Source: Microbacterium sp. BH-3-3-3
GTDB lineage: Bacteria; Actinomycetota; Actinomycetes; Actinomycetales; Microbacteriaceae
Length of the DNA: 64,000 bases
NCBI RefSeq assembly: GCF_001792815.1
Contig: NZ_CP017674.1
Location: forward strand, 434,001-498,000
Direction: 5' to 3'
The notes under the pieces: model-generated
Databases searched by the model: none
Seen by the model: the letters and a program-made list of their open reading frames with translations, nothing else
What the model was told of the DNA's origin: nothing
In this document: in pieces, positions 30,726 to 46,742 of the stretch
How the letters are laid out: each line of letters starts with the position of its first letter
How positions within the stretch are numbered: position 1 is the first letter of the stretch
Program-made: the position numbers and the translations under genes

Positions 30726-32651
30726 CTACCGAGACAGGTGCGTGTGGATGGCCTCGGCCAGTGTCGGCCCGATACCCGGCAGCTCCGTGATCTCGTCGGG
30801 CGTGGCGTTCTTCAACGCCGAGACCGACCCGAAGTGGCGCAGCAGCGCCTTGATGCGGGTGTCACCGAGTCCCGGCACCTCGGTGAGCACGCTCGTGATG
30901 TCGCGCTTGCGGCGCTTGCGTTGATGCACGATCGCGAACCGATGGGCCTCGTCGCGCAGGCGCTGCAGCAGGTACAGGGCCTCGGAGGTGCGCGGCAGGA
31001 TCACCGGGTACTCCTCCCCCGGCAGCCACACCTCCTCGAGACGCTTGGCGATCCCGCAGAGCGCGATCTCCTCGTGCCCCGCGTCGGCCAGCGCCCGTGC
31101 GGCGGCCGCGACCTGGGGCTGACCGCCGTCGACGACGAGCAGCTGCGGGCGATACGCGAAGCGGGGGCGCTTCCGCGCCGTCACGACGTCGCCGTCGGCC
31201 GTGGCCTCTTCGGAGTCGGGCGACGTCACGATCGCGCCGTCAATCGTCTCGGGCTCGATCTCGTCGGGTCGGTCCAGGTACGCCACGCGTCGCGTGAGCA
31301 CCTGGTACATCGAGTCGGTGTCGTCGGTCGTCTCGGCGACCCCGAACGAGCGGTACTGGTCTTTGCGGGGAAGCCCGTCTTCGAAGACCACCATCGAGGC
31401 CACGACGTTGGTCCCCGACAGGTGCGAGATGTCGAAGCACTCGATGCGCAACGGCGCCTCGGTCATGCCGAGCGCCTCCTGCAGGTCGGTGAGAGCCTGC
31501 GACCGGGCGACGTAGTCACTCGTGCGCCGCGTCTTGTGCAGCATCAGCGCCTGCTGCGCGTTGAGGGTGGCGGTCTTGAGCAGGTCGGCCTTGCGCCCGC
31601 GCTGGGCGACCTGCAGCGTCACCGGGCGGCCGCGCCGCTCGCGCAGCCAGTCCTCGAGCTGCGGGGCGTCGTCGGGCAGCTCGGGAACCATCACCTGGCG
31701 CGGGATGTCGGCGGCATCCGCATCGCCGTAGGTGCGCTGCAGCACCTGGTCGACGAGGTCGGCGCCCGAGATGTCGATCTCTTTCTCGATCGTCGTGGCG
31801 CGCACACCGCGCACGCGCCCGCCCCGCACGACGAAGTGCTGCACGGTGGCGGCGAGTTCGTCTTCGGCGATGCCGAAGAGATCGGCATCGGTGTCGGGCG
31901 CCAGCACCAGGGCGCTCTTGCCCAGCACGGCGTCGATGGCCTGCAGACGGTCCCGGTAGAGGGCGGCGGCCTCGTAGTCCATCGCCGCCGACGCCTCTTT
32001 CATGCGGGCGGTGAGCTCGCGCGCGAAACGCTGGTCGCCGCCCGACATGAAGGCGACGAAATCGTCGACCATCGCACGGTGCTCGGCGATGGTGACCTTC
32101 ATCGAGCAGGGTCCGCCGCAGCGGCCGATCTGCCCGGGGAAGCACGGCCGCCCCGAGGCCATGGCCTTCTTGTACGACGAATCGCTGCAGGTGCGGATCG
32201 GGAAGACCTTGATCATCAGGTCGATCGTGTCGTGCACCGCCCACACCTTGGGGTACGGCCCGAAGTACTTCGCCCCGCGGATCTTGGGGTTGCGGGTCAC
32301 GATCACGCGCGGCGCCTCGTCGGCGAGGGTGATCGCCATGAAGGGGTACGACTTGTCGTCGCGGTAGCGCACGTTGAAGGGCGGATCGAACTCTTTGATC
32401 CACATGAACTCGAGCTGCAGCGAGTCGATGTCGCTGGGCACGACCGTCCACTCCACGCTCGCCGCGGTCGTGACCATGCGGCGGGTGCGTTCGTGCAGCG
32501 AGTGCAGGGGCGCGAAGTAATTCGACAACCGGGCGCGCAGATTCTTGGCCTTGCCGACGTACAGCACACGGCCCTCGGCATCGCGGAACCGGTAAACCCC
32601 CGGGTTGGTGGGGATCTCGCCGGCTTTCGGACGATAGGGCAGGTGCGACAT
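30726..32651 (-). CDS. uvrC: Excinuclease ABC subunit C
   Basis: A 641-residue nuclease making both incisions in nucleotide excision repair. The N-terminal GIY-YIG domain has [20 protein letters not shown], the middle has [10 protein letters not shown] and a UVR-type helix pair, the RNase H-like half has [20 protein letters not shown] and [10 protein letters not shown], and the C-terminus has helix-hairpin-helix repeats. I prefer ATG at 32651 ([11 protein letters not shown]); an in-frame GTG at 32669, 3 bases after the uvrA stop, is possible. Expression probably comes from the damage-type promoter before uvrA. Confidence 0.96.
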
Positions 32652-35648: not shown

Positions 35649-35671
35649 AGTCTAGGTCGGGCCTCCGACAT
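35649..35671 (-). promoter_or_regulatory. DNA-damage-type (PafBC-like) promoter of uvrA
   Basis: On the minus strand ATGTCGGAG, 8 bases (GCCCGACC) and TAGACT match the actinobacterial RecA-independent damage promoter consensus as I recall it (tTGTCRgtg-N8-TAnnnT). Six bases separate the -10 from the GTG start. No LexA-like box is visible nearby. Confidence 0.7.
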
Positions 35672-39182: not shown

Positions 39183-39205
39183 AGCGTAGGCGGGGCCTCC
39201 GACAT
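39183..39205 (-). promoter_or_regulatory. DNA-damage-type (PafBC-like) promoter of uvrB
   Basis: ATGTCGGAG, 8 bases (GCCCCGCC) and TACGCT on the minus strand fit the same consensus as the uvrA promoter, with the same 6-base gap to the start codon. Confidence 0.7.
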
Positions 39206-43816: not shown

Positions 43817-44368
43817 TCATCCCCGTCGGGCGAGAGCCTCGCTCGTCCACCGCGCGTATCGCGCCCAGGGGGCGTCGACCCCCTCGGCCAGAGCCGCCAC
43901 GTGTGCCGACAGCGCCGGGCTGCGGCGGAACCATTCCGTCCGGTCGAACCGGTCGTCGGCGAACTGGGCGTGCCGGCGCCGTTCGACCAGACGGTCGCCG
44001 AGTTCGAGCGCCAGCAGCTCGTCGTGCCAGATCGCGGCCAGACGCCTGCGAGGGCGGGCCGAGGTGCCGATCTTGATGCGGTCGCCGAATCGCAGGTAGT
44101 AGACGACGTCGACCCGCGGCGGCGGGAGCTCACCGTCGATCGGATCCCCGTGCCGCCATTCGCACACGGCGCACAGCCACCCACTCGGCCACCGCACCCC
44201 CAGACGCGATCCGCAGAGGATGCAGGGGGTCGGGAGCAGATCGGTCACCCCGTCGGCGGATGCCGCCCACTCGGCGCTGACGGCTAGATGCCACGCGCAG
44301 AGCGAGACGGGGGCGTCGGCGACGGCGGGCCCGAGGCAGCGATCGGCGAGACAGTCGGGGGCGGACAC
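43817..44368 (-). CDS. Zinc-finger GIY-YIG (T5orf172-like) nuclease-domain protein
   Basis: A 183-residue protein. The first 75 residues hold two probable zinc sites: C6-x4-C11 with C24-x2-H27, and C49-x2-C52 with C66-x2-C69. Residues 86-150 fit the GIY-YIG fold of the T5orf172 group: VVYYLRFGD then IKIGTS (Lys99, Gly101), an Arg cluster at 107-109, Glu129 in LVERRRHAQF and TEWF at 144-147. Such domains cut or bind DNA. GTG at 44368 lies 6 bases after TAGCGT within a promoter box shared with uvrA and uvrB, so I infer a leaderless, DNA-damage-induced gene. Confidence 0.78.
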   Translation of the reverse strand: MSAPDCLADRCLGPAVADAPVSLCAWHLAVSAEWAASADGVTDLLPTPCILCGSRLGVRWPSGWLCAVCEWRHGDPIDGELPPPRVDVVYYLRFGDRIKIGTSARPRRRLAAIWHDELLALELGDRLVERRRHAQFADDRFDRTEWFRRSPALSAHVAALAEGVDAPWARYARWTSEALARRG

Positions 44369-44374
44369 GGCTCC

Positions 44375-44397
44375 ACGCTACGTCCGGCCCCCGACAT
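44375..44397 (-). promoter_or_regulatory. DNA-damage-type (PafBC-like) promoter of the GIY-YIG gene
   Basis: ATGTCGGGG, 8 bases (GCCGGACG) and TAGCGT on the minus strand, then exactly 6 bases to the GTG start; the arrangement is identical to uvrA and uvrB. Confidence 0.65.
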
Positions 44398-44403
44398 CGG
44401 GGC

Positions 44404-46692
44404 TCACTCCCCCGCGACCGGGGCCTCCAGCGTCAGGAAGAGCCCGGCGTACGGCCCCAGCTCGAGCGAGAAGCTCTGCAGTTCGTCGACGCGACCCACC
44501 GCGTCGCCCGTCTCGGCGTCGACGGCGGTGCTCTGCGGGACCAACCACTCGGAGCGCACCGTTCCCTCGATCGTCTCGCCCGAGAAGTTCAGCACCGTGA
44601 TCTGCAGCGGGGCCTCGTCGAGGTGCTTGTCGCCACCGTCGAGCCGGTGCACCATCACGAGCATGCTCGGGTGTCCGACCTGCGGGATGTCGACCTGCGA
44701 GGCGACGGCGATGCCGTTCTCGCGACGGATCCGCAGCACGTCGCGGAGCCCCGAGAGGAACGAATCGGGGTCGTCCTGCTGGCTGCCCAGCGAGCCGTAG
44801 AGCGACCGGGCCCGCGGCATCCCGGATGCCGATGACGAGGCCTCCGGGGCCACGTCGAGCAGGTCGTGCGCCCCGCGCTCGATCCATCGCGTGTCGCCCG
44901 ACGAGATGAGGTGTCTCACATCGTCGGCGGGGAGGGTCAGGGATCCGGTCAGATCCCATCCCGACAGCGCGAACACCCCGGGCTGCCATGAGTTGTACTT
45001 CACCAGCAGCAGGTGGGCGTCGCGGATCGCCGGCACGTCGCTCTCGGAGATCTCGGCGAGAGTCGCCTTGCCCTGCGTCGCCGCGATGAGCGACGTCATC
45101 GTGCACGCGATGCCGTTCTGCGTGAAGACGAGGTTGTAGTCGGCCTCGACGGTCAGCTTCTCGGTCAACTCGGATCGCACCATCTCGGCGATCTCGCCAC
45201 CGGTGTGCTCGCCGTGACGGAACGGATACAGGGTGTCGCGATGCGTGGTCGCCCAGTGCACCAGCTCATACGTCAGCTCGTCGTGGTTCTGCATGCCGTG
45301 CACGAGCTGCGCCGGTTCGAGACCGGTCTCGAGCGCGGTGGTCAACGCGAGGCGCAGGAACTCCGTGTTCGCCGTCGCCAGAGCGTGGTGGTATCCCGGA
45401 CGCGTGACGAAGTCGTACGAGAGGTCGGCACCCACCGCACCGGTGTCGCGGATGTCCTCCATCGTGAGGTTCAGCTCCTGGAAGGTGAACCCCCCGACCT
45501 TGCGCACCATGCCGGCGATGATGTGGTTCGCCGCGTGCGACAGGGGGTGCCCCTCCGACCAGGCCGGAAGACCCTCCGCGCTCTTCTCGACGCCGAGGAA
45601 GCCGTTGGCGTCGAGGCGCAGAGCGCTGGTGCCCAGGTCACCGAGCGAGTGCAGCGCGTCGCCGATCACCAGACGCATCCCCGCGAAGGTGGGGTCGAGC
45701 CAGTTGATCGACGGCTGGCCCTCCTTGAAGTAGTGCAGGTAGACCCACCGGCGCTCCATGCCGTCGGTGCCGACCACCGGGGCGGTCGCGCTCCAGTTGG
45801 TCTCTTTCACGCCCGGCGTGTAGAAGATGACCCGCTGCAGTTCGCCGATGATGTATCCGCGCGCACTGAGCTCGCGCTCGGTGTCGGAGTCGAGGTTGAC
45901 CGAGTCCCGTCCCGCGGGCACCTCCGGCAGGAGTCCCCAGTCCTCCCGGGGAATCTCGACCATGTGGTAGATGCCGGGGTAGTCCTTGTACGCCATCTCG
46001 GCGAGCCGGAAGTCGGCGCCCTTGCCGGTGTGGCCGGGCACGATGTCGTCGATGACGCTGCCACCGTGTGCGTCGGCCACGTCGGCGACGCGGCGGAAAG
46101 CGTTCTCATCGCCGAAGTCCGGGTCGATCTGGGTGCTGATGCGGTCGAAGTGGCCGTCGACGCTGGGGGTCTCCTGCCATCCGGTGATCCCGCCGGCCCG
46201 CTTCACCGGACCCGTGTGGATGCCGTTGATGCCCACCCACTCGAAGGCCTCCCAGAGCGCCTCGTTGCCGAGGGATTCGAGGAAGGATTCCCCCGGTCGC
46301 GTGATCAGCGAGATGGGATAGGCGGTGAACCACACGTCCGTCGAATCGATGGCGCGTCGCGCGTCGGGCCGAGCGTAGGGGTTCCGCCACATCGACGGCT
46401 GTCCCGACAGCTGTCGGCTGAGGACGTCGGCGTCTTTGAGCATCGACTGGCGCACGAGCCACTCGACGTACGAGGGGTTCATTCCGTTCGCGTTGCGCGG
46501 ATCCGTCAGGAACCGTCGCAGAGTTCCCCCTCGGAACTGATCCCGCGGGCGGAGCCTGCGGGGTCGAGCCGGGTACCTCTGCTCGTCGTAACTGATCTCC
46601 GACGCGGTCTCGGCCACGTCGTCTGCAGTCACCTCTCCCACCGTCTGGCCATCGGTACCCTGATCCATCGTCCGCTCGTCGGCGTCGTCCAC
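44404..46692 (-). CDS. treS: GH13 trehalose synthase-like (maltose alpha-D-glucosyltransferase family) enzyme
   Basis: A 762-residue GH13 protein. After about 60 polar residues come an (alpha/beta)8 domain with SVIDDIVPGHTGKGADF, the probable nucleophile in SALRLDANGFLG, acid/base Glu in FTFQELNLTME and the third Asp in MQNHDELTYELV, and a C-terminal beta domain (ITVLNFSGETIEG). TreS enzymes isomerise maltose and trehalose; the active-site wording here differs from classical TreS (EANQ), so specificity is open. GTG at 46692 follows AGGAGG by 6 bases; the GTG at 46707 lies upstream of that site. Confidence 0.7.
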   Translation of the reverse strand: MDDADERTMDQGTDGQTVGEVTADDVAETASEISYDEQRYPARPRRLRPRDQFRGGTLRRFLTDPRNANGMNPSYVEWLVRQSMLKDADVLSRQLSGQPSMWRNPYARPDARRAIDSTDVWFTAYPISLITRPGESFLESLGNEALWEAFEWVGINGIHTGPVKRAGGITGWQETPSVDGHFDRISTQIDPDFGDENAFRRVADVADAHGGSVIDDIVPGHTGKGADFRLAEMAYKDYPGIYHMVEIPREDWGLLPEVPAGRDSVNLDSDTERELSARGYIIGELQRVIFYTPGVKETNWSATAPVVGTDGMERRWVYLHYFKEGQPSINWLDPTFAGMRLVIGDALHSLGDLGTSALRLDANGFLGVEKSAEGLPAWSEGHPLSHAANHIIAGMVRKVGGFTFQELNLTMEDIRDTGAVGADLSYDFVTRPGYHHALATANTEFLRLALTTALETGLEPAQLVHGMQNHDELTYELVHWATTHRDTLYPFRHGEHTGGEIAEMVRSELTEKLTVEADYNLVFTQNGIACTMTSLIAATQGKATLAEISESDVPAIRDAHLLLVKYNSWQPGVFALSGWDLTGSLTLPADDVRHLISSGDTRWIERGAHDLLDVAPEASSSASGMPRARSLYGSLGSQQDDPDSFLSGLRDVLRIRRENGIAVASQVDIPQVGHPSMLVMVHRLDGGDKHLDEAPLQITVLNFSGETIEGTVRSEWLVPQSTAVDAETGDAVGRVDELQSFSLELGPYAGLFLTLEAPVAGE

Positions 46693-46719
46693 TCCCGACC
46701 TCCTCACGTCTGACCTCCG

Positions 46720-46742
46720 ACGCTACCCGGTTCCGGCGACAT
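46720..46742 (-). promoter_or_regulatory. Promoter of the GH13 gene, partial damage-type box
   Basis: ATGTCGCCG, 8 bases (GAACCGGG) and TAGCGT. The TGTCG core and -10 fit the uvr boxes but the GTG part does not, and the mRNA has a leader with a ribosome-binding site. Confidence 0.4.

Follow-up and report, generated by a model that had tools for sequence, protein, structure and literature searches.

A gene of 183 codons within a 64,000-nucleotide stretch of Microbacterium sp. BH-3-3-3 DNA (the window; positions 434001-498000 of a genome of 3.51 Mb in one contig) encodes a protein that joins two Cys/His clusters to a GIY-YIG domain of the T5orf172 type. Damage-type control of this gene is well supported by sequence comparisons within the family Microbacteriaceae: a box predicted to be of the PafBC type precedes its GTG start codon, and the same box is found upstream of most orthologues. 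The reading that we favour, as having slightly better than an even chance of being right as a whole, is that of a PafBC-regulon gene specifying a damage-induced repair endonuclease derived from a phage-type T5orf172 nuclease.

The promoter box in the window and in the genome

The first-pass annotation of this DNA had described the promoter as a copy of the arrangement before uvrA and uvrB. The layout at the 183-codon gene (ATGTCGGGG-N8-TAGCGT, six nucleotides, GTG) is exactly so, and exact box matches occur three times in the window, at this gene, uvrA and uvrB (the last two identified through NCBIfam), against 0.03 expected in shuffled sequence. Genome-wide, the box was found 83 times (46 forward and 37 reverse), as compared to a single match for the reversed pattern. 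A start codon lies 5-8 nt downstream from 63 of the 83 boxes, mostly at 6 nt (45) or 7 nt (13), counting open reading frames (ORFs) of at least 60 amino acids or open at the end of the stretch. Spacings of 5-8 nt between box and start are linked to leaderless mRNAs, and the spacing seen here is a leaderless promoter layout. The PafBC/RecA-NDp motif TGTCRGxG-N8-TAnnnT is present at promoter spacing before the 183-codon gene, which assigns its box, as a prediction, to the PafBC type; the mycobacterial PafBC motif is given as tTGTCRgtg-8 nt-TannnT in PMC5656591. Chance occurrence was ruled out by the shuffles, the reversed-pattern control and the shifted windows described below.

Genes associated with boxes in this genome include uvrA, uvrB and recF (NCBIfam), recA (whose box lies 51 nt upstream of the start used), FtsK, a DNA polymerase III alpha-type gene, two UvrD helicases, MgsA, RadA, SbcD-type, RecG-type, SRAP and ExoIII-type genes, methyladenine and AlkZ-like glycosylases and clamp-loader genes. 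A repair link is not apparent for some box genes, for example those for an epoxide hydrolase and RpiB, and the share of repair genes is not an unbiased rate: 40 of the 83 box-site proteins were run against Pfam, partly picked by eye. Motif and repair-gene content are common to this set and the PafBC (RecA-NDp) regulon of mycobacteria; the present family, however, did not turn up as a member of that regulon in the papers searched. Among the titles and abstracts met in searches of open-licence PMC papers, none describes the family as PafBC-controlled. The first-pass annotation had called the protein undescribed; the T5orf172/GIY-YIG domain family itself is already known, and NCBI has a name for these proteins, "GIY-YIG nuclease family protein". 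A pair of neighbouring WYL (PF13280) genes, encoding 330 and 324 amino acids, is taken to be pafB and pafC (no NCBIfam model matched either one), and PafBC is the presumed activator in this organism.

Several box sites drew attention in their own right. A one-mismatch box lies at 46720-46741 (minus strand), 12 nt ahead of the GTG of a treS-type gene, at a level of mismatch where 2.68 boxes are expected by chance per window. A full uvrC gene (30795-32621, minus strand), near uvrA and uvrB, has no exact or one-mismatch box nearby, unlike these two genes. Elsewhere in the genome, the box at 2682553-2682574 (L229) is followed after 8 nt by a gene of at least 330 amino acids with no Pfam match at E up to 1e-6. 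Two DUF222 proteins begin 6 nt past exact boxes (L223 and L245; 2249967-2249988 and 3443997-3444018) and seem to be a further uncharacterised group in the damage regulon.

Conservation of the box and induction by damage

Of 299 Microbacteriaceae genomes, 135 yielded the gene, in 43 of 85 genera, as did 131 of 198 genomes of its own genus; 131 of the 135 gene-bearing genomes gave one match each. Upstream sequences were compared at 135 loci from 134 of these genomes and all 43 genera, one genome contributing two loci and another (G264) being omitted as its match lies at a contig end. Conservation of the box upstream of orthologues, the point on which the first-pass annotation had staked its proposal in advance, was borne out: 106 of 135 loci have a box with two mismatches or fewer at 5-8 nt ahead of an in-frame start, and the 675 shifted control windows, 140 of which lack any candidate start codon, have none. 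Another count (143 of 161 loci versus 7 of 844 windows, with up to two mismatches at 3-12 nt) has some organisms doubled, and the former figure is preferred. In a looser scan, allowing a spacer of 8 or 9, any position in about 200 nt and at most one mismatch, 100 of 135 loci in 31 of 43 genera scored, against 1 of 671 shifted windows; when these upstream stretches were scanned as reverse complements, 8 of 135 reached that level.

Retention of the box merely through shared descent appears unlikely, given the contrast in information between columns. Across 36 genera, nine of the ten specified columns carry 1.41-2.0 bits and the first T 0.94, as compared to 0.07-0.62 in the 25 preceding columns, a contrast that is partly built in since the rows were selected by box match. 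Sites were also picked by GTCGG and spacing alone. Under this rule 88 of 135 loci qualify and TAnnnT is in place in 78 of them, whereas the shifted windows yield eight sites, none with TAnnnT. For the GTCGG-picked sites (33 genera), the information in the -10 part amounts to 1.56 bits at the first T, 1.80 at the A and 2.0 at the last T, as compared to 0.4-0.9 in most spacer columns. Such a pattern would be expected from selection on the box.

At 29 of 135 loci the strict test failed. Visual inspection showed a longer leader or a spacer of nine bases at some of them and no box at others. In one genus (g17), five of six loci (L264, L277, L286, L296 and L316) have by eye a TGTCGG-type box with a nine-base spacer.

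The four loci fetched from Labedella lack a PafBC box. Each has a perfect CGAAC-N4-GTTCG palindrome that adjoins the start or overlaps it, as compared to a single such palindrome in the 675 shifted windows. The 16-base form, TCGAAC-N4-GTTCGA, which we take to be the LexA box of actinobacteria, has only two or three sites per Labedella genome, one of them at this gene in 4 of 4. At the four loci the palindrome stands in the same frame and contains an ATG or GTG in that frame, so that it may be partly coding; the L. gwakjiensis palindrome overlaps the deposited protein at its first codons. The four palindromes may represent a single event. Absence of the PafBC box through loss of pafC was ruled out, as a homologue of pafC (the second WYL gene) is present in 26 of 26 genomes tested, including Labedella. 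These data would suggest that two different regulators keep the gene responsive to damage, one having been swapped for the other in Labedella.

Induction itself was sought in published data. RNA-seq of Curtobacterium aetherium exposed to UV-C (PMC12029717) lists a "GIY-YIG nuclease family protein" as induced right after exposure, together with UvrA, UvrB, RecA, RadA and SbcD, and once more after 20 min; UvrC appears separately, in the later sample. Curtobacterium members of the present family bear that NCBI name among the matches listed, which are the best 120 of 1328, 162 and 851 in the protein searches. All six loci fetched from genus g32, taken as Curtobacterium via its nearest named matches, have a one-mismatch box. 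In each of these six genomes, PF01541 identified one locus whose frame of 653-711 codons is taken to be uvrC, with an additional locus in two of six; PF10544 identified this gene in five of six and an additional locus in one. On the strength of the name match, the boxes and these locus counts, the UV-induced gene is probably the orthologue, although some strains have other GIY-YIG genes. Of the DNA-damage-induced gene claimed in the first-pass annotation, damage-type regulation is well supported by sequence; induction is seen for the Curtobacterium gene, whose orthology is likely and not proven.

Protein build and relatives

The box sits in the gap behind the treS-type gene (44404-46707). The Cys/His clusters and the GIY-YIG core residues reported earlier are indeed present (Y90, K99-I-G101, R109, E129 and E145-W-F147) and kept in close relatives. 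The table gives the positions of these parts and of the boxes.

Features of the window discussed in the text
Feature	Positions	Strand	Remarks
PafBC/RecA-NDp-type box (predicted) TGTCGGGGGCCGGACGTAGCGT	44375-44396	minus	6 nt upstream of GTG, leaderless layout
Same-pattern box upstream of uvrA	35649-35670	minus	6 nt from GTG
Same-pattern box upstream of uvrB	39183-39204	minus	6 nt from ATG
ORF of the putative zinc-ribbon, T5orf172-type GIY-YIG protein	43817-44368	minus	183 aa, GTG start at 44368
First Cys/His cluster, optional module (C6, C11, C24, H27)	44288-44368	minus	absent in short forms
Four-Cys ribbon, residues 40-76 (C49, C52, C66, C69)	44141-44251	minus
T5orf172-type GIY-YIG domain, about residues 88-162	43883-44107	minus

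In an alignment of 136 rows from a wider family set, with the window's own sequence present twice, Y90, Y91, K99, G101, R109, E129, H133 and E145 are invariant in 135 rows, the remaining row having a gap. C6 is opposite a Cys in only 51 of 136 rows, and the spacing ahead of C11 varies. R109 and E129 would correspond to the catalytic Arg and Glu of GIY-YIG nucleases, and the Cys modules would be expected to bind zinc. The gene is under purifying selection (dN/dS of 0.10-0.21 across all 36 pairs from nine Microbacterium sequences). The classical second Tyr of YIG is replaced by Lys99, and the resulting Lys-Ile-Gly is also found in phage and plasmid relatives.

"T5orf172-type" is used here as a term for likeness and orthology, the window protein itself scoring 19.5 bits with Pfam T5orf172 (PF10544), short of the gathering cut-off of 20; orthologues in five of six Curtobacterium genomes exceed that cut-off. 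A six-frame search of the genome with the T5orf172 profile gave no match at E up to 0.001, and the window protein matched no NCBIfam family. Among solved structures it had no sequence match at E up to 1, and Foldseek against the Protein Data Bank (PDB), with the whole protein or residues 1-82, gave no match at E up to 0.001. The best matches of the predicted fold are GIY-YIG proteins; the matches to Slx1, a weak likeness, and to transcription-ribbon structures appeared only in a second look. In Slx1 the zinc (RING-type) domain comes after the GIY-YIG nuclease, a reversed order with respect to the N-terminal zinc modules here.

The first-pass annotation had attributed the protein to actinobacteria. 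For the sequences searched this is too wide: outside Microbacteriaceae, weak matches were found in only 2 of 396 genomes of the phylum, besides relatives in phages and Streptomyces plasmids. Tblastn identified 84 phage records, including 49 Mycobacterium and 27 Gordonia phages, and eight Streptomyces plasmids. A match on a 1032-base contig labelled Streptomyces albidoflavus (P0100) is also among the matches listed. The Mycobacterium phage protein Avani gp100 is 35% identical to the window protein and, with its relatives, has both Cys clusters (by eye) and the GIY-YIG core in common with it; it differs in its long separate branch and in having no box with fewer than four mismatches in the preceding 300 nt. 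Within 300 nt before four phage or plasmid relatives, no box with fewer than three mismatches was found. A tree of the GIY-YIG core places 73 of 74 cellular rows in one group (97/85) beside viral rows, the lone exception (genome G129) lacking the Cys modules; the tree is a rough one, built on 75 columns, with long branches, midpoint rooting and unsettled bootstrap. A single change of label is seen in only 12% of bootstrap trees. A single origin from phage is only suggested.

More broadly, the protein shares its domain type and the conserved Arg and Glu with the T5orf172/MUG113 phage nucleases (PF10544 and PF13455; ICP1 Odn and zinc-finger homing-type genes), in which, as here, a DNA-binding part, often a zinc finger, lies beside the nuclease domain, to judge from two papers. 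According to these, zinc-finger parts are often or usually carried by phage T5orf172 nucleases (PMC10448857), and DNA cutting by the T5orf172 protein Odn requires the conserved Glu (PMC8263062). Unlike these nucleases, the present protein is cellular, usually with one match per genome, and has another type of zinc module and a damage-type promoter kept across genera.

Proposed function and rival explanations

The phage-nuclease-like build, the invariant Arg and Glu and the damage-type expression together point to a repair endonuclease. In the proposed sequence of events, PafBC would respond to DNA damage by bringing RNA polymerase to the promoter, TGTCGGxG-N8-TAnnnT; transcription would begin at or beside the GTG and yield a leaderless mRNA. 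The zinc ribbon, with the N-terminal Cys/His module in the long form, would hold DNA, and the GIY-YIG domain (Tyr90/91, Lys99-Gly101, Arg109 and the putative metal-binding Glu129) would cut one strand of a repair intermediate, damaged or branched. For a branched substrate, the only pointers are the weak resemblance to Slx1 and the recombination genes found alongside this one among the box genes. The gene itself may have been acquired by Microbacteriaceae as a phage-type T5orf172 nuclease and then put under damage control. A more specific and distinctly tentative version has a phage zinc-finger homing-type nuclease recruited to repair as a structure-specific endonuclease, analogous in bacteria to Slx1, with a LexA box replacing the PafBC box in one genus. 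If the general proposal is correct, an unstudied nuclease-like protein joins the PafBC-type damage response outside mycobacteria, one gene offers a case of damage control by two different regulators, and a route from phage nuclease to repair enzyme is suggested.

The first-pass annotation had left the choice between a nuclease and a DNA-structure-binding protein. It is conceivable, if rather improbable, that the damage-induced protein binds or marks damaged DNA, the domain holding DNA structures uncut while the zinc modules add affinity or partners. Lys99 stands where the classical second Tyr of YIG is expected, and the name "T5 Orf172 DNA-binding" is given to several viral relatives. However, Lys-Ile-Gly also occurs in the phage and plasmid relatives, the DNA-cutting Odn is a T5orf172 protein, and the putative catalytic residues R109 and E129 are invariant in all rows but one. 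A nuclease appears to be the best reading of the invariant active-site positions. Phage descent raises the different possibility, which we regard as unlikely, of a selfish, homing-type nuclease that has borrowed a damage promoter and works for its own propagation or against phages rather than in repair. The zinc-finger parts usual in phage T5orf172 nucleases, the Cys clusters common to Avani gp100, the grouping of cellular beside viral rows and the patchy presence of the gene (135 of 299 genomes) would all fit such an element. Single matches in nearly all gene-bearing genomes would not, nor would purifying selection, a conserved promoter of the gene's own that was not found before the four phage and plasmid relatives, and partly retained neighbours (45, 50 and 66 of 129 loci for three neighbouring genes). 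A defence gene was rejected, as PADLOC gave no match.

The type of box common to this gene, uvrA and uvrB, with the boxes lying within 9 kb, and the occurrence of GIY-YIG domains in UvrC and Cho (PMC1564403) bring to mind a Cho-like nuclease that would make accessory incisions in nucleotide excision repair as a partner of UvrA/UvrB. This we consider very improbable, as no UvrC-type family is among the Pfam matches of the protein and PF01541 misses the gene in a genome where a full uvrC is present. Membership in the UvrC/Cho family proper was rejected: PF01541 matches uvrC and one other locus of the genome, and TIGR00194 matches uvrC only. That other locus, a small GIY-YIG (PF01541) one with a frame of 198 codons, lies at 3107585-3107806 of the genome.
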